Of a stretch of 64,000 bases of DNA, positions 2,278 to 13,192 are shown one piece after another. Each line of letters begins with the position of its first letter. The stretch's first letter is position 1. The translations under genes were made by a program, and so were the position numbers. A model generated the notes under the pieces. That model was given only the letters and a program-made list of their open reading frames with translations, searched no databases and was not told the origin of the DNA. Origin of the DNA: Caulobacter henricii (GTDB lineage: Bacteria; Pseudomonadota; Alphaproteobacteria; Caulobacterales; Caulobacteraceae); the NCBI RefSeq assembly GCF_001414055.1, contig NZ_CP013002.1, positions 1,054,001 through 1,118,000 of the forward strand, given 5' to 3'.

Positions 2278-2748
2278 TCAGGCTGCGGCGGCCTTGGCCG
2301 CCTCGCGGGCCTTGGCGAGAATTCGGCCAAGCCCGTTGAGGATCGACGCCTGGTCAATCTCGGAGTCCAGCCGGCGATGCAACAGCCGCAGACTGGCGAT
2401 ATGGACCGATATGCCGGCCTTGGTGGTTGGATCGTTCGGCAAGGCCTCGTCCAGCAGTTCGCACAATGAACGTGCCGCGCGCTCGACCCCGCCAATCCGC
2501 TCGGCGAGCGAGAAATTGATGATGTCGCCCGAAAGCCGGTATAGCGTCGGAATATTGTCGACATCGAACGGGTTTGAAAGCTGCTCAAGCTCGGCCAGGG
2601 CCTCGTCGATCGAGCCCAGCAGGGGCTCGCGCAGGGTCTCAAGCGCCGCTTCGGCGCGTGCCAGGGCTTCCTGGGCATAGATGCCGCCCGGCTGGCTGAT
2701 CAGCTCGGCCAGTCGCGGCTTCATCCGGGTTCGCTTTACCTCGCTCAC
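2278..2748 (-). CDS. conserved all-helical protein paired with a response regulator
   Basis: 156 aa, beginning at a GTG that overlaps the stop of the upstream response-regulator gene (GTGA). The sequence is almost entirely predicted amphipathic helix, with an N-terminal SQPGGIYAQEALARAE segment and an Ala/Lys-rich C-terminus. It has no catalytic motif that I recognise. Small helical proteins of this kind accompany CheY-like regulators in Caulobacterales (the cheE-type gene is one comparison from memory), so a role as partner or output of the overlapping regulator is an inference. The translational coupling is directly visible. Confidence 0.8.
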   Translation of the reverse strand: MSEVKRTRMKPRLAELISQPGGIYAQEALARAEAALETLREPLLGSIDEALAELEQLSNPFDVDNIPTLYRLSGDIINFSLAERIGGVERAARSLCELLDEALPNDPTTKAGISVHIASLRLLHRRLDSEIDQASILNGLGRILAKAREAAKAAAA

Positions 2749-3323
2749 GCGGCGGTCCTTTGCGGTTTCACCAGCTGATCTAGTTCGGTCTGGCTTAGGT
2801 TTTGATCGGCGGCCTCACCGACCTCTGCTGCCTGGTCATCCCGACGGCGACCATCGGGATGCTCGAGCGGCGGACCGGTGTTTCGCCAGCGGCGGTCAGG
2901 CCCGACATAGACATCGCATTCAATGAAGGCCCGATCCGAGCGGGCGACCCAGAGAATGCGCTCAAGCATGACATGAGGCGAAACCGGCTTGGTGACGATG
3001 AAGCTGGCTCCGCAATCGCGGGCGCGGACCACATCGCGCATGGGCGTGTGGGCCGAAACCAGGATGACGGGCGTCTGGCGCAGGGTGTCGTTGGCCTGCC
3101 GCCTGAGCCAGTGAATCAGCTCGTAGCCATCGACATCCTTGATCTGGGCATCGGTGAAGATCAGATCGACGGGGCGCGCCTTGAGCTCGTCCTGGGCCTC
3201 GCGGCCGGTCTGAACACGGACAACATTGCGAAGGCCGAAGCCTGCCAGGACCGAAGCCAGGATGTCTTGCGCCTGACTACTGCTGTCCGCGATCAGGGCG
3301 CGGGCCTTCTCCAGGTTGATCAT
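2745..3323 (-). CDS. single-domain response regulator with Arg-rich C-terminal tail
   Basis: 192 aa from ATG at 3323; upstream in-frame ATGs at 3338 and 3362 are possible but have no better ribosome site. The receiver domain occupies roughly residues 8-128 with acidic D13, phosphoacceptor D58 (IFTDAQI), S90 and K112 all in place. There is no DNA-binding output domain. Instead a tail of about 60 residues carries GPDRR at 141-145 and a GRRR motif near 158. Arg-rich extensions on CheY-like proteins bind c-di-GMP in the Caulobacter Cle family (established for CleD), so this may be a c-di-GMP-responsive motility regulator; that part is inference. The GTG of the following helical-protein gene overlaps its stop. 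Confidence 0.87.
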   Translation of the reverse strand: MINLEKARALIADSSSQAQDILASVLAGFGLRNVVRVQTGREAQDELKARPVDLIFTDAQIKDVDGYELIHWLRRQANDTLRQTPVILVSAHTPMRDVVRARDCGASFIVTKPVSPHVMLERILWVARSDRAFIECDVYVGPDRRWRNTGPPLEHPDGRRRDDQAAEVGEAADQNLSQTELDQLVKPQRTAA

Positions 3324-3415
3324 GGTTGAAGGCAGCATGGCGGGCCCCGGGCGTCTCGGCAATTAGGCCCCACCCGGCTTAAGATATCCCCCAAAATCTG
3401 GGTAAACGATTGATA

Positions 3416-3429: not shown

Positions 3430-3491
3430 GGGTAGCGCCCGCCAGGAAAGGGCGAGGTCGACCACAAACACGGCCTCCGCTTAAGGCTTGT

Positions 3492-3800
3492 CTAGCCTGC
3501 GCCTGGTGGGCTCTGGGATGCCAGGGCTGCCGGACGGCGCAGGTCGCGCCAGCGCAGGGCGAGGCTCGTCATCAGCGCCAGACTGGCCAAGACGGTCGCC
3601 GGGCAGGCCGGGCAATGACCCGCCAGCACTGATAGATCCTGGGCACTGCTGCAGATCGGTCCCGCCAGCAGGCGCGGCGCTGCCTGCCACAGGGCGACGC
3701 CCCAGCTGAACACGGCGACTGCAGCCAGGGCGGTCTGGGTCTTGCCCCAGATCTGGGCGGTGAGGTCGGGCATCGGAGACTCCGGAAGACTGGTTGCCAT
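3492..3800 (-). CDS. small membrane protein with CPAC motif, divergent from ccoN
   Basis: 102 aa with start ATG at 3800 preceded by GGAGAG about 9 nt upstream. A second ATG at 3773 also has a GGAG site and would give a 93-aa protein. Two hydrophobic segments (about residues 25-45 and 70-88) flank a short loop containing SSAQDL and GHCPACP, so a CxxC pair sits near the second membrane segment. I do not recognise a named family. The gene is head-to-head with ccoN across a perfect FixK box centred at 3832.5. Class II spacing would put the RNA start near 3791, which fits the 3773 start better than 3800. A function in heme or copper handling for the cbb3 oxidase is conceivable but unproven. Confidence 0.7.
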
Positions 3801-3824: not shown

Positions 3825-3840
3825 TTTGATCCGGATCAAA
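3825..3840. promoter_or_regulatory. FixK/FNR box between the small membrane gene and ccoN
   Basis: TTTGATCCGGATCAAA is a perfect palindrome matching the FNR/FixK consensus TTGAT-N4-ATCAA at every position. Its centre is 62 bp before the ccoN ATG, the usual arrangement for oxygen-limitation activation of cbb3 operons. Being symmetric it could also serve the divergent small gene. Confidence 0.9.
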
Positions 3841-3894: not shown

Positions 3895-5544
3895 ATGTCC
3901 GCCCCGTCTCTCCCTGATACAGGCCCGCCCGCAGGGTCGGCCGCGTTACTCGCCTTCGCGATCGTCGGTGCCTTTCTCGCCATCATGGGGACGGGGCTCA
4001 GTCATGATCCGATCTTTCAGCTGCAGGCCGGCACCTTTGCCCTGGCTGCGGTTCTGACGGCCTTCATGCTCAATGCCGGACTGGCGTCGGGCAGTCTGCG
4101 GGACGAGCCGGACCGCTACAGCGACAATGTGATCAAGGCCGGGGTCATCGCCACCATGTTCTGGTGTGCGGCCGGCCTCGCCGTCGGGGTACTGATTGCC
4201 GCCCAGCTGTCCTGGCCGCGGATCTTCTATTTCCCTGAGCTCGGCTTCCTGAACTTCGGACGCCTGCGGCCCCTGCACACCTCGGCAGTGATCTTTGCCT
4301 TTGGCGGTAACGCCCTGATCGCCACCTCGTTCTGGGTCGTGCAGCGTACCTGCAAGGCCCGGCTGGCCGGGGGCATCGCGCCCTGGTTTGTGTTCTGGGG
4401 CTATCAGCTGTTCATCGTCATGGCCGCCACCGGCTATCTGATGGGCGCGACCCAGGGCAAGGAATACGCCGAGCCCGAATGGTACGTGGACATCTGGCTG
4501 ACCATTGTCTGGGTGGCCTATCTGCTGGTCTTCCTGGGCACGCTCTGGAAGCGCAAGGAGCCGCACATCTATGTGGCCAACTGGTTCTATCTGGCCTTCA
4601 TCGTCACCATCGCCCTGCTGCACCTGGTCAACAATGCCGGGGTTCCGGTCGGTCTGCTGAACCACAAGTCCTACGGGGTTTTCTCGGGCGTCCAGGATGC
4701 CCTGACCCAGTGGTGGTACGGGCACAATGCCGTCGGCTTCTTCCTGACCGCCGGCTTCCTGGCCATGATGTACTATTTCGTGCCCAAGCGCGTTCAGCGT
4801 CCGGTCTACAGCTATCGCCTGTCGATCGTGCACTTCTGGGCCCTGATCTTCATCTACATCTGGGCAGGCCCGCACCATCTCCACTACACGGCCCTGCCGC
4901 AGTGGGCCCAGACCCTGGGCATGACCTTCTCGATCATGCTGTGGATGCCCTCCTGGGGCGGCATGATCAACGGCCTGATGACCCTGTCGGGGGCCTGGGA
5001 CAAGCTGCGTACCGATCCGGTAGTGCGGATGATGGTTGTCTCGATCGCCTTCTACGGCATGAGCACCTTCGAAGGTCCGGTGATGTCGATCCGCGCAGTC
5101 AATGCGCTGAGCCACTACACCGACTGGACCATTGGTCACGTGCACTCCGGGGCCCTGGGCTGGGTCGGCTTCATCAGCTTCGGCGCGATCTACTGCCTGG
5201 TGCCCTGGCTGTGGAAGAAGAAGGAGATGTACTCGAACAAGCTGATCGAGTGGCACTTCTGGATCGCGACCACCGGGATCCTGCTCTACATCGCCGCGAT
5301 GTGGGTGTCGGGCATCATGGAAGGCCTGATGTGGCGCGAATACACGCCCCAGGGCTTCCTTGCCTACAGCTTCATCGAGACGGTCTCCGCCAAACACGTC
5401 GAGAACATCATCCGCACGCTTGGCGGCGCGATGTACCTCGCCGGTGCCGTAATCATGATCGTCAACATCTGGCGCACGATCCTGATGCCTTCCCAAGCCA
5501 CGTCTGAAGAGACGCCGGCCGCCCTCGCTCCTGCGATCGCCTGA
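3895..5544 (+). CDS. ccoN: cbb3-type cytochrome c oxidase subunit I
   Basis: 549 aa from ATG at 3895 with GGAG 6-10 nt upstream; the open frame begins earlier but runs through the FixK box. It is the catalytic heme-copper subunit that reduces oxygen to water at the inner membrane and pumps protons. About twelve membrane helices are visible. Conserved His positions appear in [12 protein letters not shown] (low-spin heme), YGHNAVGFF and HHLHYT (CuB), and HVHSGALGW (hemes b3 and b). First gene of ccoNOQPGHIS and under the FixK box just upstream. Confidence 0.98.
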
Positions 5545-5552
5545 GGTCCCTG

Positions 5553-6296
5553 ATGTCTGTCTGGAAACACCACGCCAAGTTCGAGCGGCATTCGCTGCTG
5601 CTCATCGTCGGCATCCTCGTGGTCGTCTCGATCGGCGGCCTCGTGGAAATCGCCCCGCTGTTCTGGCTTCAGAGCACGATCGAGAAGGTCAACGGCATGC
5701 GTCCCTACACGCCGCTCGAACTGGCCGGCCGGGACATCTATGTCCGCGAGGGCTGCTATCTCTGCCACTCGCAGATGATCCGCCCCCTGCGTGACGAGGT
5801 CGAGCGCTATGGCCATTACAGCCTTGCGGCCGAGAGCATGTATGACCACCCGTTCCAGTGGGGGTCCAAGCGAACGGGTCCCGATCTGGCCCGTGTCGGC
5901 GGCAAGTACTCCGACTCCTGGCACCGCGATCACATGACCGATCCCCGGTCGGTGGTGCCGGAATCGGTCATGCCGCCCTACAAGTTCCTGGCCGAGAAGG
6001 AGCTGGATTACAGCGATATCGCCGACAAGATGCAGACCCTGCACACGGTCGGCGTCCCCTATACGAAGGACCAGATCGCCAGCGCCAAGAAGGATCTCGA
6101 GGCCCAGGCCGATCCCTTCTCGACCGATGCGGTCGGGCTGCGCGGACGCTACGGCACCAAGGTGGTCAACCGCGACTTCGACGGTAATCCCGACAAGATC
6201 ACCGAGATGGATGCCGCCATCGCCTATCTCCAGATGCTCGGCACCCTGGTCGATTTCAAATCCTACAAGGCCCAGGCTCCGGAGAACCAGAGATGA
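5553..6296 (+). CDS. ccoO: cbb3-type cytochrome c oxidase subunit II (monoheme cytochrome c)
   Basis: 247 aa, starting 8 nt after ccoN. An N-terminal membrane anchor at about residues 15-38 ([19 protein letters not shown]) precedes a periplasmic cytochrome c domain with a single CYLCH heme site at about residues 68-72 and SQMIRP following it, as is typical for CcoO. Methionine in VMPPY is the likely axial ligand. It passes electrons from CcoP to CcoN. Its stop overlaps the ATG of ccoQ. Confidence 0.97.
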
Positions 6297-6460
6297 GCGG
6301 GCTCACCTACGAAACCGTGGCGCGGTTCGCCCAGCAGGCGGGGCTGATCTATTTCGGCCTGATCTTCCTGGCGGGCGTCGTCTACGCCCTGTGGCCTTCC
6401 AAGAAGGCGGAATTCCAGCATGCCGCGCGCATGCCGCTGGATGACGAGGAAATGCTCTGA
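6293..6460 (+). CDS. ccoQ: cbb3-type oxidase small subunit CcoQ
   Basis: 55 aa, starting at the ATG that overlaps the ccoO stop and ending in TGATG shared with ccoP. One membrane helix (about residues 17-33, [18 protein letters not shown]) is followed by a charged tail ending DDEEML. The length, single helix, WPSKKAEF motif and position between ccoO and ccoP fit CcoQ/FixQ, which stabilises the oxidase complex. Confidence 0.93.
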
Positions 6461-7329
6461 TGGCGTCCGAACGCGAAACCGATGACGTCTCGGGCGTCGA
6501 AACCACCGGTCACGAGTGGGACGGCATCCGTGAACTCGACAATCCGCTGCCGCGCTGGTGGCTATGGACCTGGTACGGCACCATTGCCTTCGCAGTGGTC
6601 TACATGATCCTGATGCCCGCTTGGCCGGGCCTGCATGGTTACACCAAGGGCCTGTTGGGTCAGTCCGATCGGGCCAAAGTGACCAGCGATCTCGCGGCTC
6701 TCGATGTCCACCGGGGTGCCGGCGCGGCGATGATCCGAAAGGCCAGCCTCGCCCAGATCGAGAGCGATCCCCAGCTGCAGGCCTATGCCCAGCAGGTCGG
6801 TCAGTCCGTGTTCGGTGACAACTGCGCCACCTGTCACGGCATCGGCGGCACGGGCGGCAAGGGCTATCCCAATCTGCGCGACGATGTCTGGCTCTGGGGT
6901 GGTACGCTGGAGGATATCCAGCACACCATCACGGTCGGCATTCGCGCCGATCACCCCCAGACCCGGACCTCGCAGATGCCGGCCTTCGGTCGGGATCAGT
7001 TGCTGGAACCGGCGGCGATCAGCGACCTGACGGAATATGTGGTCAAGCTGTCGGGCCGACCTGCTGATGCCGGAGCCGTAGCACGCGCCGCACCAGTCTA
7101 TGCCAGCCAGTGCGTCGCCTGCCACGGTGCTGACGGTCGCGGCATGCCGTCGGTCGGTGCCCCGAACCTGACGGACAGCGAATGGCTCTACGGATCCGAC
7201 CGTGTTGCCATCCGGGGGCAGATCTTTGCCGGCACCGGCGGGGTCATGCCCACCTGGGGCAACCGCCTCAGCCCTGAGACCATCAAGGCCCTGTCGGTCT
7301 ATGTCCATGCCAATGCGGGCGGTCAGTAG
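6460..7329 (+). CDS. ccoP: cbb3-type cytochrome c oxidase subunit III (diheme cytochrome c)
   Basis: 289 aa. The cytosolic N-terminus contains HEWDGIRELDNPLPRWW, the conserved CcoP start, followed by one membrane helix at about residues 33-53. Two periplasmic cytochrome c domains carry CATCH at about residue 122 and CVACH at about 218, each with a downstream Met-Pro ligand region (QMPAF and VMPTW). It accepts electrons from soluble cytochrome c. The start overlaps the ccoQ stop by one base, so the four structural genes are translationally coupled. Confidence 0.98.
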   Translation: MASERETDDVSGVETTGHEWDGIRELDNPLPRWWLWTWYGTIAFAVVYMILMPAWPGLHGYTKGLLGQSDRAKVTSDLAALDVHRGAGAAMIRKASLAQIESDPQLQAYAQQVGQSVFGDNCATCHGIGGTGGKGYPNLRDDVWLWGGTLEDIQHTITVGIRADHPQTRTSQMPAFGRDQLLEPAAISDLTEYVVKLSGRPADAGAVARAAPVYASQCVACHGADGRGMPSVGAPNLTDSEWLYGSDRVAIRGQIFAGTGGVMPTWGNRLSPETIKALSVYVHANAGGQ

Positions 7330-7334
7330 GGCCC

Positions 7335-8831
7335 ATGCCCACCCTCATCGACAACACCCACCCAAAGCCTGAAGCCCGAACGACGGTCTCGGCCGCCGCT
7401 CGGGCCAAGGGCAAGGGCGACGCCAGGGGCGGACTCTACAAGCCGCGCGAGCCGATCTACCCCAAGCTGGTTTCTGGCCGCTGGCGGACGATCAAGTGGG
7501 CGCTGCTGATCGTCACCCTGGCGATCTATTACATCACGCCGTGGATCCGCTGGGCCCGTCCTGGCGATCTGCCGCAGCAGGCGGTGCTCGTCGATTTCGC
7601 CGGACGCCGCTTCTACTTCTTCGACATCCAGCTTTGGCCACAGGAAGTCTATATCTTCACGGGCCTGCTGGTGATCGCCGCCCTGGCCCTTTTCCTGGTC
7701 ACCGCCCTGTTTGGCCGGCTGTGGTGTGGCTATGCCTGTCCCCAGACGGTCTGGACGGATCTCTTCATCGTGGTCGAGCGGTTGTTCGAGGGCGACCGCA
7801 ATGCCCGCATGCGCCTCGACGCCCAGCCCCTGTCGTTCGACAAGGCCTGGCGCAAGACTGGCAAGCACCTGACCTGGCTGGGCATCGCCTTCGGCACCGG
7901 CGGAGCCTGGATCTTCTATTTCCATGACGCGCCGACCCTGATCCGAACCTTCTGGATCGGGCAGGGGGCCATGACCGCCTATGTCTCCTGCGCCCTGCTG
8001 ACCGCCACCACCTATGTCTTTGCCGGCTGGATGCGCGAGCAGGTCTGCACCTACATGTGCCCCTGGCCGCGGATCCAGGGGGCCATGCTCGACGAGCACT
8101 CCCTGCAGGTGGCCTATCTGCGCGACCGCGGTGAACCCCGCGGTGCCCACAAGAAGGGCCAGTCCTGGGAGGGCCGGGGCGACTGCATTGACTGTCAGCA
8201 GTGTGTCGTCGTCTGTCCGATGGGCATCGATATCCGTGACGGCAGCCAGCTGGAATGCATCAATTGCGGCCTCTGCGTCGACGCCTGTGACGATATCCTC
8301 GGCCGACTGGGGCGTCCCACAGGCCTCATTGCCTATGACACCGACTCTGCCGTCGCGGCCCGTGCCTGCGGTCAGAAGGCGGTCTACAGGCCAATCCGGC
8401 CCCGGACCATCTATTATGCCCTGGCCCTGGTCCTGGTGTCGGGCCTGACCCTGTGGGGCCTGATCACAAGGCCCCTGGCCGATGTCCATGTAATCCGCGA
8501 CCGCAACCCGATCTTCGTGCGCATGCACGACGGGGCGGTGCGCGATGGCTATACCCTGAAGATCGCCAACCGGACCTTCGAGGATCGTCAGTTCGAGGTC
8601 GCCTTCGCCGGCCTCGACGGCGCGCGCCTCAGCCAGCCGGGGCGGCCGGCGGGGTCCAGCGTTTCCATCCTGGTGCCTGCTGACGAGGTCGTCGCTGCAC
8701 GCGTCTTCGTGACCGTGCCGCCCGATGCCGACCGCCCGCACAGCCTTCCTGGTCGCTTTATCGTGCGCTCGGGCGAGATCCAGTCCGACGCCAAGACCGT
8801 CTTTCTTTCCGGAGCCGCGAATCCGAAATGA
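7335..8831 (+). CDS. ccoG: cytochrome c oxidase accessory protein CcoG (RdxA/FixG family)
   Basis: 498 aa, 5 nt after ccoP. An N-terminal soluble stretch leads into several membrane helices with CGYACPQTVWTDLF and CTYMCPWPRIQ motifs, then a double 4Fe-4S ferredoxin domain near residues 284-325 (CIDCQQCVVVCP and CINCGLCVDAC). A further helix and a periplasmic Ig-like C-terminus complete the family layout. CcoG supports copper delivery to the cbb3 oxidase, acting as a cupric reductase in studied members. The stop overlaps the ccoH start (ATGA). Confidence 0.97.
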   Translation: MPTLIDNTHPKPEARTTVSAAARAKGKGDARGGLYKPREPIYPKLVSGRWRTIKWALLIVTLAIYYITPWIRWARPGDLPQQAVLVDFAGRRFYFFDIQLWPQEVYIFTGLLVIAALALFLVTALFGRLWCGYACPQTVWTDLFIVVERLFEGDRNARMRLDAQPLSFDKAWRKTGKHLTWLGIAFGTGGAWIFYFHDAPTLIRTFWIGQGAMTAYVSCALLTATTYVFAGWMREQVCTYMCPWPRIQGAMLDEHSLQVAYLRDRGEPRGAHKKGQSWEGRGDCIDCQQCVVVCPMGIDIRDGSQLECINCGLCVDACDDILGRLGRPTGLIAYDTDSAVAARACGQKAVYRPIRPRTIYYALALVLVSGLTLWGLITRPLADVHVIRDRNPIFVRMHDGAVRDGYTLKIANRTFEDRQFEVAFAGLDGARLSQPGRPAGSSVSILVPADEVVAARVFVTVPPDADRPHSLPGRFIVRSGEIQSDAKTVFLSGAANPK

Positions 8832-9322
8832 CCCATCTCGCATCCTCGCTGCCCCCGGCTGAAAAGGGACGCATCACCGGCTGGCATGTTCTGGCCGGCA
8901 TGGTGACGTTTTTCGCCCTGATCATTGCCGTGGACACCCTGTTCATCGTCCAGGCCTATCGCAGCTTTTCGGGAGAGGTGGCTTCAAACCCCTATGAGGC
9001 CGGACTGGCCTTCAACCGCACCCTGGCCCAGCGCCAGCGCGAGGAAGCGCTTGGCTGGGCCGCCGTGATCGAGCGCCCCGAGCCCGGCGTTGTCGCCCTG
9101 CGGATGTCGGACAAGGCCGGGCGGCCGCTCTCAAACCTGTCTCTGACAGGGGTGCTGGAGCGTCCGGCGACTGAAACGGGCCGGCAAACCCTGAACTTCA
9201 AGCCGGCGGGCGAGGGTTGGTACCGGGCCGAGGCGCGACTGGACGGGGCCTGGGATCTGCACGCCACCGCCCGCAATGCGAGCGAAAAGTTCGAGATCGA
9301 AAGCCGTCTGGTGGCTCCATGA
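8828..9322 (+). CDS. ccoH: cbb3 oxidase assembly protein CcoH/FixH
   Basis: 164 aa. One membrane helix (about residues 18-40, GWHVLAGMVTFFALIIAVDT) is followed by a periplasmic FixH domain including the typical NPYEAGLAFN sequence. FixH/CcoH is needed for stable assembly of CcoN with the heme subunits. It overlaps ccoG and ccoI by 4 nt on each side. Confidence 0.93.
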   Translation: MTHLASSLPPAEKGRITGWHVLAGMVTFFALIIAVDTLFIVQAYRSFSGEVASNPYEAGLAFNRTLAQRQREEALGWAAVIERPEPGVVALRMSDKAGRPLSNLSLTGVLERPATETGRQTLNFKPAGEGWYRAEARLDGAWDLHATARNASEKFEIESRLVAP

Positions 9323-11499
9323 CCGCGTCTCTTGCCGTTCCTCGCGATCTCGAGGCCTTCGTCCGGCGTGATGCCTCGGGCAGGGGGCGGCTGGAGTTGC
9401 TGGTCAATGGGGCCCGCTGCGCCGGCTGTATCGGCAAGATCGAAAAGGCCGTCGCCGCCTTGCCCGGCGTGGACGGCGCGCGCCTCAACCTGACGACCGG
9501 CAAGCTGGCGGTCGATCTCAGGGCCGTATCGGCCAATCCTGATCGGGTCGTCGAAGCCGTTGAAGGTCTGGGCTACCGAGCCTGCCTGTTTGACCCGAGC
9601 GAGGCCGCCGCCGCCCAGGACCGGGAGGGCCGCGAGCTGGCCGTAGCCCTCGGCGTCGCGGGCTTCGGTGCCGGCAACGTGATGATGTTCACCGTCCCCG
9701 CCTGGGCAGGCCTGTTCGGCCAGGAGCTGAACGCCTCAACCCTGACGGTGATGTACTGGATGGCGGCGATCATCGCGACGCCCTGCGCCCTGTTCGCCGG
9801 CAGGCCTTTTTTCAGGTCGGCCTGGGCCTCCTTGCGGCGCGGCAAGGCCAATATGGATGTGCCGATCTCGATCGGCGTGATCCTGACCCTGATCGTCAGC
9901 TTTTCCGAGACCATTCTGGGCGGGCCACACGCCTATTTCGACGCGGCGGTCACCCTGCTGTTTCTGCTGCTGATCGGCCGCTACCTGGATCACCGCCTGC
10001 GCAGTACAGCCCGGTCGGCGGCCCGCGACCTCCTGGCCCTGCAGACACCGTTCGCCGTGCGGCTGGTCGGGCCCCTGGAGCAGGGGGTTCCGATCGCCGA
10101 GGTTCGGGTGGGCGACCGCCTGGTTGTGGCACCGGGCGACCGCATTCCCGTCGATGGCCGCGTGGAAAACGGGCAGTCGACCCTCGACAATGCGCTGATC
10201 ACCGGTGAGACCGCCGTGGCCGCTGTTGCTCCCGGCTCGCCCGTCCATGCCGGCGCGCTCAATCTCAGCGGCCGTCTGGTGATGGAGGCCACGGCGCGCA
10301 GCGAGGATTCCACCCTGGCGGCTATCGGTCGCTTGATGGAGGCCGGGGCCCAGAGCCGTTCCAACTATGTGCGCCTGGCGGACAAGGCGGCCGCTCTCTA
10401 TGTCCCCGTGGTTCATAGCCTGGCGGCCCTGACCTTCGTCGGCGGCTGGGCCCTGGGCCTGGGGCCGCGCGAAGCCCTGCTGCGGGCCGCTGCTGTTCTG
10501 ATCGTCACCTGTCCCTGCGCGCTGGGCCTGGCGGTGCCCGCCGTCCAGATCGCCGCCAGCAGCCGGCTCTTCCGTCGCGGGGTGCTGGTCAAGTCCGGGG
10601 CCGCGCTGGAGCGCCTGGCCGAGATTGACCATGTGGTCTTCGACAAGACAGGTGTCCTGACAGAGGGTCAGCCCCGGCTGCTTGATGCGCCCGCTCATCT
10701 GGTCGCCATGGCCGCGCCACTGGCCCGGGCGTCACGTCATCCCCTGGCGCGTGCCCTGGCGGCCGAGGCCGGTGCTGGACCCGTTGCCGAGGCCTGTGTG
10801 GAAACCGCCGGCCAGGGCGTCGAAGGCCTGATCGACGGCCGCCGCGCGCGCCTTGGCCGAGCAGCCTTTGTGGGCCTGCAGAGCGCGGGCGCGCTCGAAA
10901 CCGAACTTTGGTTCGGGTTCGAGGATGATGTGAAGATCCGCTTCGCATTCGAGGACCAGCCGCGCGCCGACGCCGCCGCGACCATTTCAGGCCTCAAGGC
11001 CATGGGGCTGAGCGTGGAGATCCTGTCCGGCGATCTGGCCGGGCCGGTGGAACGGGTGGCTAAGGCTGTGGGACTGGACGTCACCGCTTGGCGCGCCGGT
11101 CTGACACCCCTCGAGAAGTCTGCGGCCATCGATGCGTTGAAGGCCTCCGGGCGGCGGGTCCTGATGGTGGGAGACGGCCTCAATGACGCCGCTGCGCTGG
11201 CCCGGGCCCATGCCTCCATGGCCCCGTCTGCGGCGGTGGATGCAGCACAGAGCGCGGCCGATCTGGTTTTCACCGGCGAGCGCCTGTCGGTGGTCATTGA
11301 GGCCATTGTAACGGCCCGCACAGCCAGACGGCGCGCCCTGGAGAATTTCGCCTTCTCGGCCCTCTACAATGTTGTCGCGGCTCCGGCGGCCATGGCCGGT
11401 CTGCTCAATCCGTTCATTGCCGCCCTGGCGATGTCGGGCTCATCGATGGTCGTGCTGCTCAATGCCCTGCGGCCCGGCTCGGTCAGGATGCCCAAATGA
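9319..11499 (+). CDS. ccoI: copper-translocating P1B-type ATPase for cbb3 assembly
   Basis: 726 aa from the ATG overlapping the ccoH stop; the longer open frame runs inside ccoH. An N-terminal heavy-metal-associated domain has GARCAGCIGK near residue 35. Eight membrane helices follow, with TCPCALGLAVP marking the CPC metal site. The phosphorylation loop DKTGVLTEG and hinge GDGLNDAAAL are intact. Members in this context (CcoI/FixI) export copper to the periplasm for insertion in CcoN rather than for detoxification. Confidence 0.96.
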   Translation: MTASLAVPRDLEAFVRRDASGRGRLELLVNGARCAGCIGKIEKAVAALPGVDGARLNLTTGKLAVDLRAVSANPDRVVEAVEGLGYRACLFDPSEAAAAQDREGRELAVALGVAGFGAGNVMMFTVPAWAGLFGQELNASTLTVMYWMAAIIATPCALFAGRPFFRSAWASLRRGKANMDVPISIGVILTLIVSFSETILGGPHAYFDAAVTLLFLLLIGRYLDHRLRSTARSAARDLLALQTPFAVRLVGPLEQGVPIAEVRVGDRLVVAPGDRIPVDGRVENGQSTLDNALITGETAVAAVAPGSPVHAGALNLSGRLVMEATARSEDSTLAAIGRLMEAGAQSRSNYVRLADKAAALYVPVVHSLAALTFVGGWALGLGPREALLRAAAVLIVTCPCALGLAVPAVQIAASSRLFRRGVLVKSGAALERLAEIDHVVFDKTGVLTEGQPRLLDAPAHLVAMAAPLARASRHPLARALAAEAGAGPVAEACVETAGQGVEGLIDGRRARLGRAAFVGLQSAGALETELWFGFEDDVKIRFAFEDQPRADAAATISGLKAMGLSVEILSGDLAGPVERVAKAVGLDVTAWRAGLTPLEKSAAIDALKASGRRVLMVGDGLNDAAALARAHASMAPSAAVDAAQSAADLVFTGERLSVVIEAIVTARTARRRALENFAFSALYNVVAAPAAMAGLLNPFIAALAMSGSSMVVLLNALRPGSVRMPK

Positions 11500-11663
11500 C
11501 GATCCTGCTGTTTCTGGCCCCGGCTTCGGTGGCTCTGGGGGGCCTTGGTCTCGCGGCCTTCCTGTGGACCATGAGGTCGGGTCAGTATGATGACCCCAAG
11601 GGCGATGCCGAGCGCATCCTGTATGATCATCTGGAAGACCTTCCGCCGCCGCGCGCCGATTGA
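11496..11663 (+). CDS. ccoS: cbb3 oxidase maturation protein CcoS
   Basis: 55 aa, starting at the ATG that overlaps the ccoI stop. An N-terminal membrane helix (LLFLAPASVALGGLGLAAFLW) is followed by SGQYDDPKGDAERIL, the conserved CcoS/FixS signature. CcoS is needed for cofactor insertion in the oxidase. It is the last gene of the cco operon, and the FixK box of hemN begins inside its stop codon. Confidence 0.93.
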   Translation: MTILLFLAPASVALGGLGLAAFLWTMRSGQYDDPKGDAERILYDHLEDLPPPRAD

Positions 11664-11673
11664 TCCAGATCAC
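11660..11673. promoter_or_regulatory. FixK/FNR box upstream of hemN
   Basis: TTGAT-CCAG-ATCAC matches the consensus TTGAT-N4-ATCAA in 9 of 10 positions. Its centre is about 62 bp before the hemN start, the same spacing as the ccoN box. It overlaps the last codons of ccoS. Confidence 0.8.
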
Positions 11674-13178: not shown

Positions 13179-13192
13179 TTGACACCAATCAA
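13179..13192. promoter_or_regulatory. FixK/FNR box upstream of the winged-helix/Crp operon
   Basis: TTGAC-ACCA-ATCAA matches TTGAT-N4-ATCAA in 9 of 10 positions. The centre is about 53 bp before the ATG at 13239. As the operon includes a Crp/Fnr regulator with matching recognition-helix residues, autoregulation or control by FixK is likely. Confidence 0.72.

Follow-up and report, generated by a model that had tools for sequence, protein, structure and literature searches.

A small gene with a near-invariant Cys3-His motif lies opposite ccoN in Caulobacter and is a tentative candidate for a cbb3 oxidase accessory factor

Results

A small gene divergent from ccoN

The window analyzed here is the whole 64-kb stretch (64,000 nucleotides) of Caulobacter henricii DNA. 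It carries a cco cluster on the plus strand and, head-to-head with ccoN as proposed in the initial annotation, a small open reading frame (ORF) on the minus strand, with a FixK-type palindrome between the two genes. The features of the locus are:

3473–3487, minus strand: terminator-like hairpin directly after the small gene (one found against 0.3 expected in shuffled sequences, a weak excess)
3492–3773, minus strand: gene for a small, predicted two-helix membrane protein of 93 aa, from the ATG at 3773 to the stop at 3492, based on the ORF and its translation, homologues and selection
3600–3620, minus strand: GHCPACP motif (G52 H53 C54 P55 A56 C57 P58) at the N-end of predicted helix 2
3651–3653, minus strand: codon of C41, the third conserved cysteine, in the inter-helix loop
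3780–3783, minus strand: GGAG, Shine-Dalgarno-like site for the ATG at 3773, read from the sequence
3791, minus strand: expected RNA start, calculated by placing FixK at −41.5
3825–3840, no strand: FixK/FNR-type palindrome TTTGATCCGGATCAAA, a perfect TTGATC-N3-ATCAA common to both divergent genes
3895–5544, plus strand: ccoN, cbb3 oxidase subunit I, ATG at 3895
5553–11663, plus strand: remaining cco cluster, ccoO, Q, P, G, H, I and S in this order

The ccoN assignment is based on a TIGR00780 match above the cut-off in its own genome. The other cco genes were named by reading their ORFs, and those labelled ccoO, ccoP and ccoG find matches beside ccoN in relatives (tblastn).

The small ORF opposite ccoN is a genuine gene, far beyond chance. 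A chance ORF was rejected because homologues occupy the same position and dN/dS was below 0.4 in 12/12 pairs tested (0.07–0.38; one member is common to two pairs, and one dS value approaches saturation). The previously described ORF, its GHCPACP sequence, the second ATG at 3773 with its own GGAG and the ccoN ATG were all recovered in the sequence. Translation probably yields the 93-aa form, and a longer form initiating at the ATG at 3800 is unlikely, since that codon would lie upstream of the expected RNA start near 3791. A Shine-Dalgarno-like site precedes 64 of the 79 chosen starts in the family alignment, starts that were themselves partly picked by this site. The hairpin after the gene suggests a single-gene transcript. 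Farther downstream on the same strand, positions 2745–3362 encode a response-regulator receiver protein (PF00072, E 3e-20), which was matched only in its own genome among the neighbourhood-compared loci of the genus search.

A predicted helical hairpin with a near-invariant Cys3-His motif

AlphaFold2 predicted the product to be a helical hairpin, consistent with the two-helix membrane protein described initially, with helices at residues 4–35 and 56–86 (mean pLDDT 79.7, about 59 at residues 41–50; pTM 0.50). Across the 79 aligned members, the average number of lysines and arginines per member peaks at the C end (3.61), is lower at the N end (1.67) and is lowest in the loop (1.14). This distribution suggests a topology in which both termini are cytoplasmic and the cysteine-bearing loop is periplasmic. 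Mean column identity in the alignment is only 21%, and C41 and H53 are each kept in 79 members and C54 and C57 in 78, counts that are somewhat circular because distant rows were partly selected by the cysteine/histidine motif. The C-x(n)-HC-x-x-C pattern is nearly invariant across the family; three order-level members (L258, L273 and L281) each lack one cysteine. The 79-member alignment contains no conserved thiols besides C41, C54 and C57, and no second thiol pair on the predicted inner side.

A shared FixK box and the expected control of the small gene

The palindrome TTTGATCCGGATCAAA is the sole perfect TTGATC-N3-ATCAA in the window, in agreement with the symmetric FixK box described earlier; a scan of both strands of the window for the FixK pattern with up to two mismatches returned 23 matches at 17 places, against 6.2 matches expected. 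The distance from its centre (3832.5) is 59.5 bp to the small-gene ATG and 62.5 bp to the ccoN ATG. Class II activation by FixK has a spacing of −41.5, and the arithmetic agrees with the earlier prediction of an RNA start near 3791, just before the ATG at 3773. FixK-type sites with at least 8 of 10 half-site matches were found within 220 bp upstream of 63 of the 79 members (mean best score in the shuffled-sequence control, 6.1), at a median of 60 bp from the start codon. This box-to-start distance of about 60 bp matches that of ccoN, which the consulted part of PMC3751524 describes as FixK-activated in C. crescentus.

The box is not a constant companion of the gene. Within group f2 (L260–L269 and L191), a box scoring at least 8 was found in 1/11 loci and the gene lies opposite ccoN in 11/11, and the position of the gene therefore outlasts the box; another regulator may stand in place of FixK in this group. 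No support was found for tying the absence of the gene to that of the box, as 7/8 gene-less Caulobacteraceae loci still score a box when the scoring is lenient. Two further near-palindromic FixK-type sites flank a hemN-like ORF in the window, one just before it (11660–11673) and the other just after it (13179–13192).

Co-occurrence with ccoN in Caulobacter

Among 75 Caulobacter genomes, the small gene was found in 42 of the 43 with a strong ccoN and in none of the 32 without. Strong ccoN refers to a model match over the cut-off in 38 genomes and to strong fragments in five others (G041, G042, G053, G066 and G070). In the single exception, G041, a contig end truncates ccoN, so that just the last part of the gene is present. 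In 41/42 genomes the small gene adjoins ccoN and is divergent from it, and in the remaining one (G029) the contig ends first. The association has a Fisher p of 2e-20, calculated on genomes that are related and not independent draws. A tie to ccoN across genomes was taken as the mark of a cbb3 accessory gene, and the possibility raised at the outset that homologues would be lacking near cco genes was not borne out, as homologues go with ccoN within the genus and across much of the order.

The protein search gave 32 matches in the 75 genomes and a 28-member profile gave 42 at E ≤0.05, from which G065 was discarded and to which G018 was added, its member having been located by a local profile search upstream of its ccoN (E 0.047, full motif). 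The dropped matches in G065 (E 0.037, interrupted) and G020 (E 0.007, two stops) come from genomes without a strong ccoN, and additional weak matches in G029, G037 and G069 were also dropped. G029 carries two copies of the small gene (L015 and contig C55), both close to contig ends that break off at the expected place of ccoN; a single ccoN lies on a different contig, as though the assembly had collapsed a duplicated cco operon.

Distribution in Caulobacterales and beyond

A family-level whole-genome profile search matched 51/348 genomes, eleven of them outside Caulobacter. In 10 of these eleven the gene lies directly opposite ccoN; in G115 about 3.5 kb separates the gene from the start of ccoN, both being on one contig. 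At the order level, 226/328 genomes have ccoN, and 93 ccoN loci (L099, L190, L191 and L213–L302) were examined upstream of ccoN only, so that copies elsewhere are missed. The small gene was found in 44 of the 93, unevenly spread: in 11/11 loci of group f2, 20/20 of f174, 11/19 of f1 (Caulobacteraceae outside the genus), 2/15 of f175 and 0/27 of f176. The f174 count leaves out L229, with 61 bp upstream of ccoN, and the f1 count includes L099, which entered the sample through the gene itself and without which it is 10/18. Of these 44 members, 28 were matched at E ≤0.001 and 16 more weakly (up to 0.87). Distant members were accepted on profile match, divergent place and motif together, which introduces circularity, and L099, L190 and L191 are in the profile. 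Five members (L271, L274, L277, L279 and L281) are outside the 79-member alignment, L274 and L281 through a failure of the extraction rule. The order scan ignored matches in L219 and L222 (f176), second matches in L230, L243 and L285, weak matches on the same strand or off place, and second stretches in L267 and L268.

Outside the order, the gene was found in 0/108 ccoN upstream regions at the class level, two of which (L169 and L173) offer only 55 and 326 bp upstream. The class sample comprised 110 regions (30 + 80); the 97 with a recognised ccoN start were scanned first, and all 110 were rescanned on both strands with a broader profile, the only positives being the Caulobacterales loci L190 and L191. 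Whole-genome profile searches in the class matched 5/385 genomes (3 outside the order) and, with the 79-member profile, 14/357 (11 outside the order); these searches are insensitive, both having missed the gene-carrying G097 (L190) and the first also G529 (L191). Among the 14 outside-order matches (L101 and L102 left out), only L327 shows, by reading, the complete layout in an open frame, and L325 has an HCVACW stretch in a 38-codon frame. The L327 gene (1471–1905, G592) is convincing as a hairpin-family member from outside Caulobacterales but stands isolated; it lies beside two DUF899 thioredoxin-like genes and not near cco.

Comparison with known families

As stated in the initial annotation, the window protein belongs to no recognised family: searches against Pfam and NCBIfam (E up to 10) and against PHROGs returned no match for it. 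Scans of the 79 members against Pfam gave scattered matches, with a best E of 1.8e-4 (DUF2516, one member); the most frequent, at five members each, were DUF2162 (best E 0.0055) and Phage_holin_3_6 (best E 0.019). The best E in an NCBIfam scan of 28 members was 0.008. The search of solved structures produced a single match, to a ribosomal protein (E 0.045), which was taken as chance and leaves no solved relative. The best Foldseek E was 5.3, which is uninformative for a hairpin, and four queries found no match in plasmid records.

Several small thiol proteins resemble the window protein in part. The copper-responsive CruR family (DUF2946, PF11162) has one cysteine plus a CxxC and a C-terminal RAPP, and heads operons, according to the consulted part of PMC9426467. 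The window protein is likewise small and putatively exported, and has a single cysteine ahead of a CxxC; unlike DUF2946, its family alignments show no C-terminal RAPP consensus, and its own genome has a separate DUF2946 gene. Membership was rejected on the lack of a Pfam match, the lack of RAPP and a negative profile comparison (hhalign probability 0.7% for the hairpin profile against 15 DUF2946 stretches, from 15 of 17 places found). The DUF2946 gene of the same genome (L077, 1462–1869) is followed by a same-strand ORF (3–1466), as in cruR-bfrG, that presumably encodes a TonB-dependent receptor.

DsbB (PF02600) has four helices and two cysteine pairs, and its first hairpin carries a CxxC at a helix start after a short periplasmic loop. 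The window protein shares this layout, and the layout only; unlike DsbB it is half the size and has two predicted helices, three cysteines, an invariant histidine and no detected homology. One outside-order match of the hairpin-family profile, L100, overlaps a dsbB gene and reads another frame, and so gives no support. Hhalign against one DsbB gave a probability of 0.2%, a weak single-sequence test. Neither DsbB nor DUF2946 is among the 25 of 31 matching Pfam families listed for the 79 members. MerF, a small two-helix membrane mercury carrier with thiols, is also similar in its predicted outline, and differs in that the window protein has no Pfam match and its family conserves thiols only at C41, C54 and C57.

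Like CcoI/FixI, CcoG, CcoH, CcoS, PccA/PCuAC and Sco, which are encoded with or act on the cbb3 genes, the small gene has a link to cbb3, lying beside ccoN; unlike them, it is a divergent gene encoding 93 aa with a C-x(n)-HCxxC motif and no family match. CcoA and CopZ differ from the window protein in size and fold.

A second occupant of the slot in f176

In group f176 a different small protein occupies the same divergent place in 10/27 loci (L213, L214, L218, L221, L222, L224, L238, L300, L301 and L302). It has one cysteine followed by CHxxC and, by reading, a signal peptide, and is putatively secreted. A version without the last cysteine is present in L215, L217 and L223. Pfam scans of eight of the ten proteins gave one chance-level match, and NCBIfam scans of four gave none. 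A profile of eight sequences showed weak similarity to DUF2946 (probability 62%, E 7e-5) and no similarity to the hairpin-protein profile.

Discussion

The distribution and motif described above lead us to propose, with slightly less than even confidence and from sequence, that the small gene encodes a dedicated cbb3 accessory factor, a FixK-induced membrane Cu(I)-handling step for CuB. At low oxygen, FixK would bind the shared palindrome and fire in both directions, so that the oxidase subunits and the small protein would be made together. The protein would form a helical hairpin in the inner membrane, its two termini facing the cytoplasm, and C41, H53, C54 and C57, in the periplasmic loop and at the start of helix 2, would bind Cu(I). 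Copper exported by CcoI/FixI would be taken up by the small protein, alone or with PccA, and presented to CcoN for CuB. FixK control of the minus strand, the membrane topology, copper as the ligand, and the identities of donor and acceptor are all steps that we infer. The original suggestion that a CxxC beside a copper-heme oxidase points to cofactor delivery is retained here, with the putative ligand set widened beyond the CxxC to the four nearly invariant residues.

The co-occurrence with ccoN, the kept divergent place, the near-invariant Cys3-His set, the spacing of the box and the Cys3-His occupant of the slot in f176 argue for a copper role. Against it, the slot is without the hairpin protein in 8/19 Caulobacteraceae, 13/15 f175 and 27/27 f176 loci; the absence from many ccoN loci implies that the protein is not generally needed. 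The loss of one cysteine in L258, L273 and L281 also counts against it. The ligand is also uncertain in kind, as C..HCxxC could equally be redox-active, zinc-binding or heme-binding.

Work on C. vibrioides provides the context for this proposal. According to the consulted part of PMC12617631, FixI is needed for cbb3 activity, PccA is needed in part and Sco1/Sco2 are not; CcoA and CopZ, which supply copper to cbb3 in Rhodobacter capsulatus, are reported absent. Weighing against the proposal, its authors have PccA deliver copper to CuB, and cbb3 activity in the absence of PccA is restored by adding copper. The partial requirement for PccA would leave room for a second periplasmic route. The gaps named for the cbb3 route in the same text are a copper importer and a cytoplasmic donor to FixI (PMC12617631); this donor is the named uncharacterised chaperone, and the published gap fits the small protein only in part, which counts against a copper role. 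The genomic context of P1B ATPases was drawn there from same-strand genes only, and the transposon screen used a strain without fixI and cbb3 (PMC12617631, consulted part); therefore, neither would flag a divergent cbb3-specific gene. The gene is not named in the searched text of PMC12617631. No paper evidently about it was found in a literature search that covered few subscription papers, and an earlier listing in array data is possible.

Among the alternatives, a thiol-redox partner is unlikely. In such a protein the cysteines would alternate between dithiol and disulfide forms, C41 serving as the resolving cysteine, and would maintain a partner in the periplasm (a copper chaperone or apo-CcoO/CcoP) in the reduced state or pass electrons to quinone like DsbB. 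The DsbB-like placement of the CxxC, a resemblance of layout only, speaks for this reading; the absence of DsbB from the listed Pfam families and the low hhalign probability speak against it, the out-of-frame L100 match gives no support, and the invariant histidine and the tie to ccoN are left unexplained. A small structural or stabilising cbb3 subunit, in which the cysteines would hold zinc or a disulfide, has a similarly low probability. CcoM and CcoH are small structural or stabilising cbb3 subunits in other bacteria, and the tie to ccoN, the small predicted hairpin and the common promoter site fit such a role. Nevertheless, the gene is divergent and not an operon member, many ccoN loci of the order lack it, and conservation falls on metal-type residues and not on the helices.

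It is quite unlikely that the protein is a MerF-like copper importer feeding FixI from the periplasm, in which an outer Cys/His site would catch Cu(I) and pass it inward. A hairpin with a thiol site at the predicted outer face would suit this role, as would the reported absence of CcoA and the open place for a cbb3-route importer (PMC12617631, consulted part), and if the importer is the true gap the MerF-like role becomes the better reading; the transmembrane relay would nevertheless seem to need a second conserved thiol pair on the inner side, and neither this nor a Pfam match was found. A role like that of CruR, as a regulatory nascent peptide or a copper sensor, is very unlikely: DUF2946 also combines a cysteine with a CxxC (PMC9426467, consulted part) and the f176 slot protein is weakly DUF2946-like, but the hairpin protein has no RAPP-type end and fails the DUF2946 profile comparison, and, with a hairpin after the gene and the downstream gene matched only in its own genome among the loci compared, there is no operon left to control, which disfavours a leader-peptide role.

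Returning to the proposed copper-handling factor, a broader reading, which we regard as doubtful, is that in Caulobacterales a lineage-specific membrane Cu(I) step, its gene facing ccoN and activated from the common FixK site, replaces parts of the Rhodobacter CcoA/CopZ/Sco route, and that the slot opposite ccoN is a dedicated copper-handling position filled more than once by unrelated small Cys3-His proteins, namely the hairpin protein and the putatively secreted f176 protein. How copper is supplied to CuB in cbb3 oxidases is incompletely understood, and of the helpers known from other bacteria several are missing from Caulobacter, dispensable there or required only in part. With a conserved, FixK-linked candidate, the copper question can be tested in a model organism.
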